Source of the DNA: Actinomycetes bacterium
GTDB taxonomy: Bacteria > Actinomycetota > Actinomycetes > Nanopelagicales > Nanopelagicaceae
Assembly (NCBI GenBank): GCA_025360085.1
Contig: JANYCW010000055.1
Coordinates: 1 to 59,240, forward strand
Length of the DNA: 59,240 nt
Direction of reading: 5' to 3'
Part shown: one piece after another, positions 10,558-14,433 of the stretch
Layout: each line of letters opens with the position of its first letter
Position numbering within the stretch: the first letter of the stretch is position 1
Made by a program: the position numbers and the translations under genes
The notes under the pieces: model-generated
What the model was told of the DNA's origin: nothing
Database searches by the model: none
Seen by the model: only the letters and a program-made list of their open reading frames with translations

Positions 10558-11640
10558 TTGAGCAACGATCGATTTGCATCAGCACACGAAATGGTTCGCG
10601 AATACGCCGAAATAGAGGCGGCAATGGCCGATCCAAAGATTCATAATGACCAAGCAAATGCCCGCAAACTGGGCCGCCGTTATGCCCAGTTAGGTCCCGT
10701 TGTCGCCGGTTTTAATGCTTGGAAATCGGCCGAAGATGACGTGTTGGCCGCTCAAGAGTTAGCCCAAGTCGATATCGACTTTGCAGTTGAAATTCCGGCA
10801 TTGGAGGAAGTTGCCTCGCGCGCGGCGCAGAAGTTAGAAGAGTTATTACTTCCGCGCGATCCAAACGATGATCGCGATGTTATTTTGGAGGTTAAAGCAG
10901 GTGCAGGAGGAGATGAATCGGCGATCTTTGCCGGAGATTTACTGCGCATGTATATGCGTTATGCCGAACGCCACAACTGGAAAGTTGAAATAATCGATGC
11001 GACTGAAAGTGAAATGGGTGGTTATAAAGATATATCTGTAGGAGTTAAATCTAAAGGAAGTTCGGCCCCTGGTGAATCCCCGTATGCGCGACTCAAATTC
11101 GAGGGCGGTGTGCACCGTGTTCAGCGCGTTCCAGAGACCGAGAGCCAAGGACGTATTCATACATCCGCGGCCGGGGTATTAATCCTGCCCGAGGCCGAAG
11201 AAGTCGATGTTGAATTAAATATGAACGATGTACGTGTGGACGTATTTCGCTCATCAGGTCCTGGCGGACAATCAGTGAATACAACCGACTCTGCAGTTCG
11301 TCTGACCCACGTTCCAACGGGGATTGTTGTCTCGTGCCAGAATGAGAAGAGTCAACTTCAAAATAAGGAGTCGGCACTTCGCATCCTTCGTGCACGTTTA
11401 TTAGCCGCCGCGCAAGAGGCTCAAGAGGCCGCGGCATCGGCCGAGCGCAAAAGCCAAGTGCGTACCGTAGATAGATCAGAGCGAATTCGCACATATAACT
11501 ATCCGGAAAATCGAATTAGTGATCATCGTGTTAACTACAAATCAAATAATTTGGATGCGGTCTTAAATGGTGATCTCGATGACATGATTCAAGCCCTCAT
11601 CGATGCCGATAAAGCTGCTCGTTTAGCCAACACAAACTAA
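10558..11640 (+). CDS. prfA: Peptide chain release factor 1
   Basis: A 360-residue class I release factor that reads UAA and UAG and triggers peptide release on the ribosome. The codon-recognition PxT motif is PET at 192-194 within VPETESQGR, and the catalytic GGQ is at 236-238 in [16 protein letters not shown]. The start is a TTG at 10558, supported by a strong AGGAGGAG at 10546-10553 and by alignment of [19 protein letters not shown] with family N-termini. prmC, which methylates the GGQ glutamine, follows 6 nt after the stop, so the two are very probably cotranscribed. Confidence 0.96.
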
Positions 11641-11646
11641 ATCTTC

Positions 11647-12495
11647 ATGGATATTAAGGCGATATTGCGCATAGCGAAGTCACAGTTAGAGCAATCAGGA
11701 ATCATTCAAACTGATGCCGAGCACCTCATGGCACACGTTTTGGGTCTGCCTCGGATGGATCTCCATAATGTGGTTCTCGTTGAAACGATGCTGTCTGCAG
11801 TTAGTGATACCGGCATCATTGAAGAGCAGTTTTTTGCATTGTTGGATCGACGAATCAATCATGAACCATTGCAATACATAACTGGTCTTGCACCTTTTCG
11901 CTATTTGGAGATTGAAGTTGGTCCAGGTGTTTTAGTACCTCGACCTGAATCTGAACTCTTAGTAGATGCGGTGTTGGCGCATATCAAGAATCTGCCAGCG
12001 CCCGTTAGTGTCATAGATCTGGGTGCAGGTTCAGGAGCACTGGCCTTGGCAATAGCAACTGAGGCACCTGAAGCCCGCGTGATTGCCGTCGAAAAATCGC
12101 CAGAGGCGATTTACTGGCTTAAACGAAACGTCTCGGTTATTGCCCACAATGTGCGCGTAGTTGAAGGTGACGTTGCAGAGGTTTTGCCCGGAGTGAAATG
12201 CGATGTTGTCATTGCTAATCCACCTTATATTCCAAATTCAGGACAACTTCCTCGTGATGTAATTGCATTTGAACCCCATATCGCGCTATTTGGCGGAGTA
12301 ACAGGAATGGAACTTCCAAAATTATTTATCGAAGCTGCGGCTAGATTGTTGAAACCAGCCGGCGTTTTAGTCATTGAACACTCCGAAAATCAAGCAATTG
12401 CAATTGCTACTGAATTAGCCGTAGATTTTGAAGATATTGCACTCCACGATGACCTCCTTGGTCGTCCCCGTTGGTCAAGTGCTGTGAGAAGGTAG
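11647..12495 (+). CDS. prmC: Release factor glutamine methyltransferase
   Basis: A 282-residue SAM-dependent methyltransferase that N5-methylates the glutamine of the GGQ motif in release factors. The N-terminal ~75 residues are the helical substrate-binding domain. Motif I is DLGAGSG (124-130), and the amide-binding NPPY is at 191-194. Another family landmark, the GVLVPRPESELLVD loop, is present. It follows prfA, its substrate gene, and ends 2 nt before the next start. The last residues (PRWSSAVRR) match the family C-terminus. Confidence 0.95.
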   Translation: MDIKAILRIAKSQLEQSGIIQTDAEHLMAHVLGLPRMDLHNVVLVETMLSAVSDTGIIEEQFFALLDRRINHEPLQYITGLAPFRYLEIEVGPGVLVPRPESELLVDAVLAHIKNLPAPVSVIDLGAGSGALALAIATEAPEARVIAVEKSPEAIYWLKRNVSVIAHNVRVVEGDVAEVLPGVKCDVVIANPPYIPNSGQLPRDVIAFEPHIALFGGVTGMELPKLFIEAAARLLKPAGVLVIEHSENQAIAIATELAVDFEDIALHDDLLGRPRWSSAVRR

Positions 12496-12497
12496 AC

Positions 12498-13142
12498 ATG
12501 GGCAAAGTGATCGATCTAAAAAAGGGCGAGCTCAGCAACCATCTAAAAAAAGCTTTAAAAGCGATTGCCGATGGATATATCATCGCGATTCCACTTGAAC
12601 ATAGTTATGTATATGCATGTGATGCATTCAAGCACGAAGCCGTACGTTCGATGCATGTGTTGAGGGGAGATCCCTTGTTTACCGCCGCACAAGTCATGGT
12701 TGGTGATTCAAAAACTGCTCAAGGTGTTGTGCGCGAAATTACGCCAGAAATCGCAGCTTTAATGAAAAAGTTCTGGCCAGGAATGTTGTCGATGAATCTG
12801 CGTCCACAAATGGGATTGAATTGGGATTTAGGTGATGCCAATCAACTAGATCGAATCAGCATTCGTGTTCCTAGAAATAAATTTGCAAAAGCGTTATTGG
12901 CAGTTAGCGGACCATTGGCCGTTGCAAGTGGTGCACGCGTGGGACGTCCATCTCCTAAAGCGCTGAGCGATATCGTTGTTCTCGACTCGGATTTAGCGTT
13001 GCAGTTTAATAACGGCGCGCTTCGCAAAGGCCCGATGACAACCGTTCTAGAGGCCGATGACACCGGCGTTCGAGTCACACGCATCGGGGCAATCACATTA
13101 CAAGAGATTCGAAGTATCGTCCCTGGAGCCACTGGACTATAA
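12498..13142 (+). CDS. TsaC/Sua5-family protein with degenerate active-site motifs
   Basis: A 214-residue YrdC-fold protein at the position where Actinobacteria carry the threonylcarbamoyl-AMP synthase of tRNA t6A modification. The fold is recognisable from YACDAF, KFWPGMLSMNL and NWDLGDANQ, which align with the usual PTDTVYGxGADAF, FWPGxLxxVL and WDLGDA segments. However, the canonical PTxTVYG is PLEHSYVY (32-39), the K-G-R substrate loop is replaced by HVLRGDPLF, and the SSAN.SG stretch is ASGARVG. Catalysis is therefore doubtful. The ATG at 12498, just after prmC, is preferred to the overlapping upstream frame. It may be a non-catalytic paralogue or a strongly diverged enzyme. Confidence 0.75.
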   Translation: MGKVIDLKKGELSNHLKKALKAIADGYIIAIPLEHSYVYACDAFKHEAVRSMHVLRGDPLFTAAQVMVGDSKTAQGVVREITPEIAALMKKFWPGMLSMNLRPQMGLNWDLGDANQLDRISIRVPRNKFAKALLAVSGPLAVASGARVGRPSPKALSDIVVLDSDLALQFNNGALRKGPMTTVLEADDTGVRVTRIGAITLQEIRSIVPGATGL

Positions 13143-13173: not shown

Positions 13174-14433
13174 ATGCCTACTTTTTATGGTCCCGATTTT
13201 GATGCGTTAACCCGACAAGATCCAGAGATAGCGCAGGTTCTTTTATCTGAACTCAAGCGACAACAAACTAATCTGCAACTCATAGCTTCGGAGAACTTCA
13301 CATCACCTGCGGTTTTAGCAGCAATGGGGTCGACGCTATCGAATAAGTACGCCGAGGGTTATCCAGGAAAGCGTTACTACGGTGGCTGCGAGGAAGTAGA
13401 CAAAGCCGAGTTTTTAGCTATCGAGCGTGCGAAAAGTTTATTTGGTGCCGATCATGCAAATGTTCAACCACATTCAGGTGCAAGTGCCAACGTCGCCGTG
13501 TATCAAGCCTTTACTAAGCCGGGGGATACCGTATTAGCGATGTCTTTGCCACACGGTGGTCACTTAACTCATGGCTCGGCAGTTAATTTTTCTGGTAAAT
13601 GGTTTAACGTCGAGTCTTACGGAGTTCGTTCCGATAATGAACTTATTGATTATGACGAATTACGCGATAAAGCTATCGCAACCAAACCAAAGATGATTTG
13701 TTCTGGTGCAACTGCCTATCCTTCGCTGATTGACTTTGAAAAGATTCGCGCAATTTGCGATGAAGTCGGTGCAATCATGTGGGTAGATGCAGCCCACTTT
13801 ATCGGTCTAGTTGCAGGTAAAGCGATCCCCTCTCCAGTGCCTTATGCCGACGTCGTCTCCTTTACAACACATAAAGTTTTGCGCGGTCCACGCGGTGGAA
13901 TGATTTTGACTAAAGCTGAACATGCCACAGCTATAGACAAGGCGGTTTTTCCGGGCATGCAGGGCGGGCCGATTATGTCGGCAGTCGCAGGCAAAGCCGT
14001 AGCGCTAGCTGAATGTGCAACGTTGGAATTTCAAAAATATGCCAAGGATGTAATTGTTAATGCAAAGGCGCTAGCCGCGGCCCTTGAAGTAGAGGGTATG
14101 CGCGCAGTATCTGGTGGAACTCAAACTCACTTAGCATTGATGGATATTCGCAGTACTGGAGTAACAGGCAAAGTAGCCGACGAGCGTTGCGGAGCTGCGG
14201 GAATCGTTATGAATAAGAACTCCATTCCAAATGATCCTCAAAAGCCAGGTATAACAAGTGGAGTCCGAGTTGGTACACCTGCGACAACTACACAAGGTAT
14301 GGGAGTGCTCGAGATGAAGGTGATTGCACAATTGATTTCGCGCGCCATTGCAAGTGATGATGCCGCAACTCATTCTGCAATTAGAAACGAAGTGCATGCA
14401 CTAACCGCACGTTTCCCTATTTATCAAGCATAA
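13174..14433 (+). CDS. glyA: Serine hydroxymethyltransferase
   Basis: A 419-residue PLP fold-I enzyme interconverting serine and glycine with tetrahydrofolate, the main one-carbon source. Landmarks are LIASENF (37-43), EGYPGKRYYGGCE (61-73), VDAAHFIGL (204-212), and the PLP lysine K234 in TTHKVLRGPRGG. Length is normal. It sits between the TsaC-like gene and wecA, and wecA starts 8 nt after its stop, so it may also supply transcripts into the ATP synthase assembly genes. Confidence 0.97.
   Translation: MPTFYGPDFDALTRQDPEIAQVLLSELKRQQTNLQLIASENFTSPAVLAAMGSTLSNKYAEGYPGKRYYGGCEEVDKAEFLAIERAKSLFGADHANVQPHSGASANVAVYQAFTKPGDTVLAMSLPHGGHLTHGSAVNFSGKWFNVESYGVRSDNELIDYDELRDKAIATKPKMICSGATAYPSLIDFEKIRAICDEVGAIMWVDAAHFIGLVAGKAIPSPVPYADVVSFTTHKVLRGPRGGMILTKAEHATAIDKAVFPGMQGGPIMSAVAGKAVALAECATLEFQKYAKDVIVNAKALAAALEVEGMRAVSGGTQTHLALMDIRSTGVTGKVADERCGAAGIVMNKNSIPNDPQKPGITSGVRVGTPATTTQGMGVLEMKVIAQLISRAIASDDAATHSAIRNEVHALTARFPIYQA

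Follow-up and report, generated by a model that had tools for sequence, protein, structure and literature searches.

A protein of TsaC descent, encoded in the 59,240-nt stretch of DNA analysed here (the window) and by relatives throughout the same family, keeps the genomic position and the predicted fold of the first enzyme of tRNA t6A synthesis and has lost three of the four residues of its ATP-binding tetrad. At the level of sequence, the catalytic motifs are gone, the residues replacing them are conserved, the gene is under selection, and a full-length Sua5 accompanies it in the near-closed genomes of the family. Sua5 has probably displaced TsaC in t6A synthesis in this lineage, the old TsaC being retained and rewired as a non-adenylating protein. 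No description of this TsaC-like protein was found in the literature searched, from whose reach most subscription papers were excluded.

The TsaC-like ORF is intact and opens with an ATG at 12498 (Table 1). Pfam PF01300 matches residues 22-197 (E 1.6e-20; 73.8 bits against a curated cut-off of 25.1), which places the protein in the Sua5/YciO/YrdC superfamily. TIGR00057, the NCBIfam equivalog model of threonylcarbamoyl-AMP (TC-AMP) synthases, scores 92.6 bits on it, under the cut-off of 123.2, and the copies of P. lacus and IMCC19121 also stay below this value (105.2 and 100.5 bits). PF03481, the C-terminal Sua5 domain, was not found on the window protein, for which Pfam returned PF01300 only, even with the E limit relaxed to 10.

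Table 1. The TsaC-like gene of the window, its neighbours and the sites discussed in the text
Feature	Position	Strand	Evidence
prfA, release factor 1 type, neighbour	10558..11640	+	Pfam PCRF, RF-1
prmC-type methyltransferase, neighbour	11647..12495	+	Pfam PrmC_N, MTS
TsaC-like CDS, 214 aa	12498..13142	+	ORF, PF01300, TIGR00057, residue alignment, fold
IPLEHSYVYA, residues 31-40, in place of xPTDTVYGxx; T33 lost, Y37 kept	12588..12617	+	Alignment
HVLRGD, residues 53-58, in place of xxxKGR (K56 to R, R58 to D); H-x-L-R-x-D conserved in the family	12654..12671	+	
WDLGD, residues 109-113, as in canonical actinobacterial TsaC	12822..12836	+	
SGARVG, residues 144-149, in place of SANxSG; S143 equivalent kept, N145 equivalent lost	12927..12944	+	
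TT, residues 181-182, equivalent of S181-T182, kept as S/T	13038..13043	+	
R195, kept in 126/126 readable distinct family copies	13080..13082	+	
glyA, serine hydroxymethyltransferase, neighbour	13174..14433	+	Pfam SHMT; synteny

The prfA-prmC-tsaC-glyA surroundings are those that we take to be the usual actinobacterial place of tsaC, which is in keeping with the presence of prmC upstream of tsaC in all 15 outgroup loci. A gene of the glycosyltransferase-4 family is also among the neighbours in the window (Pfam). Directly downstream, glyA is found in all of the 41 loci from other genera, which were chosen by the authors from 113 other-genus genomes, and in 78 of the 80 loci of the best 80 of 151 relatives. 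Eleven of the 41, all belonging to two genera (g27 and g29), have no prmC upstream; an HflX-like GTPase takes this place in the six of them that were read (identified by Pfam in one, by eye in the others). Since glyA is also found in 9 of the 15 outgroup loci, the argument from this neighbour is a lead only. The prmC-tsaC-glyA order places the protein in the orthologous position, at what the initial annotation had called the conserved tsaC locus.

Residues were numbered through a phmmer alignment to Sua5 of P. abyssi, which has no gap at the motifs. PMC10321239 describes K56xR58/S143xN145 as ATP-binding and T33, S181 and R195 as threonine-binding, all of these residues being required in yeast Sua5. 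Against the P. abyssi sequence, the window protein shows T33 changed to L, K56 to R, R58 to D and N145 to A, with S143, Y37 and R195 kept, so that the tetrad reads R, D, S, A. The initial annotation had reported PLEHSYVY for PTxTVYG, no KGR loop and ASGARVG for SSANxSG; these changes are borne out, the S143 equivalent still being a serine. It had also named the finding that would overturn it, an alignment in which the changes were merely shifted and the catalytic residues present; the absence of gaps at the motifs led to the rejection of this explanation. A sequencing error in the window is excluded, the loss of K56, R58 and N145 being common to all readable family copies, none of which has any of the three. 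These copies number 126: the 151 family rows reduce to 127 that are distinct over residues 10-200, and L172, unreadable at the tetrad, was removed (it was also kept out of alignment A4). L172, which seemingly corresponds to G241:C9:4444-5061, has an in-frame TGA and ends in a fragment after the stop, reflecting either a sequencing error or a real pseudogene.

What replaces the lost residues is itself conserved. Among the 126 copies, R56 and L55 each occur in 114, H53 in 111 and D58 in 105, with H56 in twelve copies and S58 in ten. Ranked by conservation among 207 columns (54-row sample), R56 is 18th, H53 36th, L55 38th and D58 52nd, which argues that the new residues are not the product of drift. 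Y37, like R195, is invariant among these copies, S143 is retained in 119, and WDLGD and R195, both present in the window protein, are ordinary features of actinobacterial TsaC. The complete KRSN tetrad is found in 14 of 15 outgroup TsaC and in all of 15 Sua5 (12 from the family and 3 from outside). This outgroup was obtained by dropping L094, L095 and L099, which are Sua5, and L100, an odd second copy from G003. The latter (G003:C13:8672-9262) is a very divergent TsaC-like protein in a single bin of the genus, with an end branch of 3.2 changes per column, possibly a contamination. With K56, R58 and N145 gone, the window protein is unlikely to adenylate, and TC-AMP synthesis would have been lost with them. 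The change of K56 to R is conservative, which counts against displacement.

An AlphaFold2 model, computed with 44 sequences of the lineage, has a mean pLDDT of 87.6. Searches with Foldseek and VIA-align rank Sua5/TsaC2 structures first (Foldseek E 6.8e-18), with a best superposition at Z 26.8 and an rmsd of 2.2 over 209 residues; the retention of the fold, asserted from the letters alone in the initial annotation, is thereby upheld for the predicted structure. Carbamoyl-adenylate domains of HypF, TobZ and GdmN match more weakly (Z about 10 to 19), and they are parts of larger proteins. Although the catalytic domain of Sua5/TsaC2 provides the best structural matches, the window protein lacks both the C-terminal Sua5 domain and the KxR/SxN residues, and the Sua5 of the lineage is a separate gene. 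TsaC (YrdC) is resembled in fold, length, locus in the prfA-prmC/glyA context, WDLGD, the Y37, S143 and R195 positions, and tree placement; unlike it, the window protein is devoid of T33, K56, R58 and N145, falls below the TIGR00057 cut-off, and co-occurs with Sua5 in near-closed genomes.

YciO, a PF01300 paralog, also shares this fold (E. coli YciO, PDB ID: 1k7j, Z 23.4), which raises the question of whether the window protein is of this known type outside the t6A pathway. PMC12506659 reports that YciO does not do the job of TsaC in vivo, and that it retains most of the TsaC active-site residues together with a conserved basic patch; the window protein, in contrast, does not retain most of these residues, and its pocket is rewritten. 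Furthermore, its gene lies where tsaC is expected, and the protein falls among actinobacterial TsaC in trees limited to TsaC and Sua5 sequences; an assignment to YciO is scarcely credible. An RNA-binding surface as in YciO was considered and dropped because pI, the sole property computed, is not conserved across copies: those among the best 80 of 151 are mostly basic (median 8.67; 9.6 for the window protein), whereas the other-genus copies are acidic (median 4.84).

Besides 'Candidatus Planktophila', 13 further genera of the family are represented among the 126 readable distinct copies. A scan of the GTDB collection (best 80 of 151) finds relatives in 'Candidatus Planktophila', 'Candidatus Nanopelagicaceae' and other actinobacteria, and the gene is present in complete genomes, including those of P. 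lacus MMS-21-148, IMCC19121, IMCC26103 and IMCC25003. The record titles of several bins of the lineage, L132 and L140 among them, name organisms like Bifidobacterium breve or Streptomyces griseus and look mislabelled. In trees, the family copies cluster together inside TsaC and apart from Sua5, with a support of 98 (one long odd row lying inside) and of 95 in a second tree, and the window protein joins outgroup TsaC against Sua5 with a support of 100, in agreement with TsaC descent. Median dN/dS is 0.059 for the TsaC-like gene (57 usable pairs), 0.050 for prmC (60), 0.028 for glyA (43) and 0.017 for prfA (54), as estimated by the Nei-Gojobori method on the 60 most similar, overlapping pairs among 81 loci. 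The TsaC-like gene is under purifying selection at a level like that of its neighbour prmC.

These data bear on whether the gene is a decaying, functionless remnant. Loss of the catalytic residues, the in-frame TGA of one copy and the varied tetrad changes seen elsewhere would suit such a remnant. Yet the dN/dS and the high conservation of the replacement residues point the other way, as does the gene's persistence beside glyA where prmC is no longer upstream. Moreover, the family alignment finds a match in 194 of 201 genomes of the order and in 107 of the 108 high-quality ones, in a group whose abundance and genome streamlining (acI) are described in PMC5301498. Decay is therefore highly improbable.

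The t6A modification is nearly universal, and the enzyme that starts its synthesis serves as a marker for the pathway. The initial annotation had offered two readings: that there is a second, true TsaC, the present copy having taken on a new role, or that the enzyme of this lineage is unusually changed. A true TC-AMP synthase does exist in the lineage, as judged from its sequence: each of the 18 sampled family genomes assembled in at most 3 contigs has a full-length Sua5 besides the TsaC-like gene. Sua5 is seen in 123 of the 201 family genomes sampled; among drafts that are 95% complete or more, the figure is 32 of 47 (a Fisher p of 0.0065 is reported for the comparison with the near-closed genomes), where presence means a PF01300 match at E below 1e-40, to which two partial genes (G005, G209) were added. 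The family Sua5 measure 310-348 aa (17 loci read), and the tetrad is intact in the 12 in which it was read, 9 of them from the 18 near-closed genomes. The one scanned with Pfam, from G015, has both PF01300 and PF03481, and the two scanned with TIGR00057 (G015, G062) pass its cut-off with 180 and 186.5 bits. According to PMC10531406, the gene named tsaC2 there is essential in M. tuberculosis. Sua5 usually lies near a gene for a SIMPL-domain protein in the family loci. This SIMPL (DUF541) gene, for example L062 9685-10428, is on the strand opposite to the nearby Sua5 in most family loci read.

The expectation of a second synthase is thus satisfied for the lineage and fails in the assembly to which the window belongs: in this genome, 99.36% complete, a PF01300 search returned the TsaC-like gene once and no second YrdC/Sua5. 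TsaE, TsaB and TsaD are present, close together on contig C51. The SIMPL gene was not found there either, whether searched for with one sequence or with an alignment. Fourteen further drafts of at least 95% completeness likewise show no Sua5 (15 of the 47, the window's included), and a subclade of four genomes (G195, G034, G240 and G144; loci L279, L031, L282 and L283) has none in any member and is a candidate for real loss. These observations would fit a TsaC-like protein that is still the organism's TC-AMP synthase, working with an active site changed to R56 and D58. Against this, three of the four tetrad residues are lost in every readable copy, those of Sua5-carrying genomes too, and Sua5 is universal among the near-closed genomes. 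Sua5 and SIMPL are also missing together, the latter being absent from 73 of the 78 Sua5-less genomes (among 201 genomes, both are found in 108, neither in 73, only Sua5 in 15 and only SIMPL in 5). Very close sisters in the tree are split by the presence of Sua5, such as G024 and G115, or G074 and G104. On these grounds, continued synthesis of TC-AMP by the window protein is very unlikely.

Because Sua5 and SIMPL drop out of drafts jointly and even very close relatives disagree in having Sua5, its absence from the window's assembly is probably an assembly gap, less probably a real loss, and the organism itself probably has the gene. When mapped on a tree of the TsaC-like gene with 90 copies from the genus, the state "Sua5 absent" (37 genomes) requires at least 23 changes, of which starred branches force 15; the Sua5 status of some of these genomes is taken from their number of matches. 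Absence is mildly clustered on the gene tree, 9-10 of 500 shuffles being as low. Among the 30 best-scoring loci, 27 are from drafts, and in 15 of these drafts no more than 2 kb separates Sua5 from a contig end, versus 8.9 expected for a uniform position. The nearest copy of the TsaC-like protein among the relatives (80% identity) is that of G024, in which Sua5 is cut by the contig start. In G015, G073 and G063, the surroundings of Sua5 are mostly made of genes not seen in other loci, those of G015 looking like sugar and glycosyltransferase genes (proteins read by eye). PMC7771536 describes an island of this sort, with envelope-sugar genes, in another class (Actinomarinales) and states that similar islands have been reported from most bacteria. 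Many Sua5-flanking genes are common to the complete genomes G062, G064, G070 and G072, and a variable island therefore explains the drop-out only in part.

Outside the family, every altered TsaC observed belongs to a genome that also has Sua5, but the reverse does not hold, since Sua5 can accompany a canonical TsaC. TsaC was read in 18 actinobacterial genomes, chosen by the authors, that carry a full-length Sua5. Eleven of them, representing six families (f2, f5, f25, f29, f31 and f33), show an altered PTDTVYG, and the other 7 (f17, f19, f20 and f37) retain it; nine of the 18 have the full KRSN in their TsaC. Both KRSN and PTDT[VL]YG are present in all 21 genomes without Sua5 among the matches listed (to E near 1e-42). 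A rule by which Sua5 leads to TsaC erosion was rejected, fully canonical TsaC being kept by G292, G303, G283, G328 and G306; G052 also combines Sua5 with a canonical TsaC. The altered outside copies group with those of the family (support 86, unstarred), which may reflect one old event or a long-branch grouping. Few species encode both TsaC and Sua5 according to PMC10321239; that count appears to have kept only tetrad-bearing sequences, so pairs of an altered TsaC and Sua5 would escape it. Three genomes, G261, G306 and G299, have a further PF01300 protein (L304, L323 and L325, respectively) with RLTL at the tetrad positions, which may be YciO; neither prmC nor glyA was seen beside these three genes.

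The displacement of TsaC by Sua5 can be pictured as follows. An ancestor would have acquired a full-length Sua5 (TsaC2), and this enzyme would now supply TsaB, TsaD and TsaE with the threonylcarbamoyl-AMP needed for tRNA t6A. The single-domain TsaC, the older of the two, would have stayed beside glyA, losing T33 and, on the ATP side, K56, R58 and N145, and would have been rewired around H53-x-L55-R56-x-D58 with retention of the fold, Y37, S143, the S181/T182 positions and R195. S181 (as S or T) and R195 remain of the threonine residues, T33 being lost, which favours a protein that binds a ligand without adenylating it. The ligand, guessed to be an amino acid or another carboxylate, would be seated by R195 and the S181/T182 loop. 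The protein would then exert its effect through binding, regulating translation or serine/glycine/threonine metabolism or serving as a partner in one of them. That it is a ligand-binding regulator is a tentative proposal, in which both ligand and partner are guessed. The main rival to ligand binding is a non-catalytic role within the t6A machinery, the protein serving Sua5, TsaB, TsaD or TsaE, for instance as a scaffold or regulator. The TsaC fold, the retained part of the threonine-side residues and the pathway genes of the window genome are compatible with such a partner; the loci read, in contrast, give no linkage to sua5 or tsaBDE, and this role is judged unlikely. A more specific form of the ligand-binding proposal, that the displaced TsaC is an ATP-independent amino-acid sensor or regulator coupling serine/glycine/threonine supply (GlyA) to translation in a Sua5-using branch of Actinomycetes, and that its rewiring (H-x-L-R-x-D) has gone furthest in the streamlined acI, is doubtful. 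As for the new role put forward in the initial annotation, purifying selection, the conserved replacement motif and retention in small genomes speak indirectly for one, its nature still being a guess.

The positional ortholog of the first enzyme of t6A synthesis has lost activity residues across a whole family, which includes the most abundant freshwater actinobacteria. Locus and fold alone are therefore insufficient to name such genes tsaC. The small conserved protein, adjoining release-factor and one-carbon genes, is directly testable, and the retention of its gene in spite of small genomes would make it a case of displacement followed by reuse.
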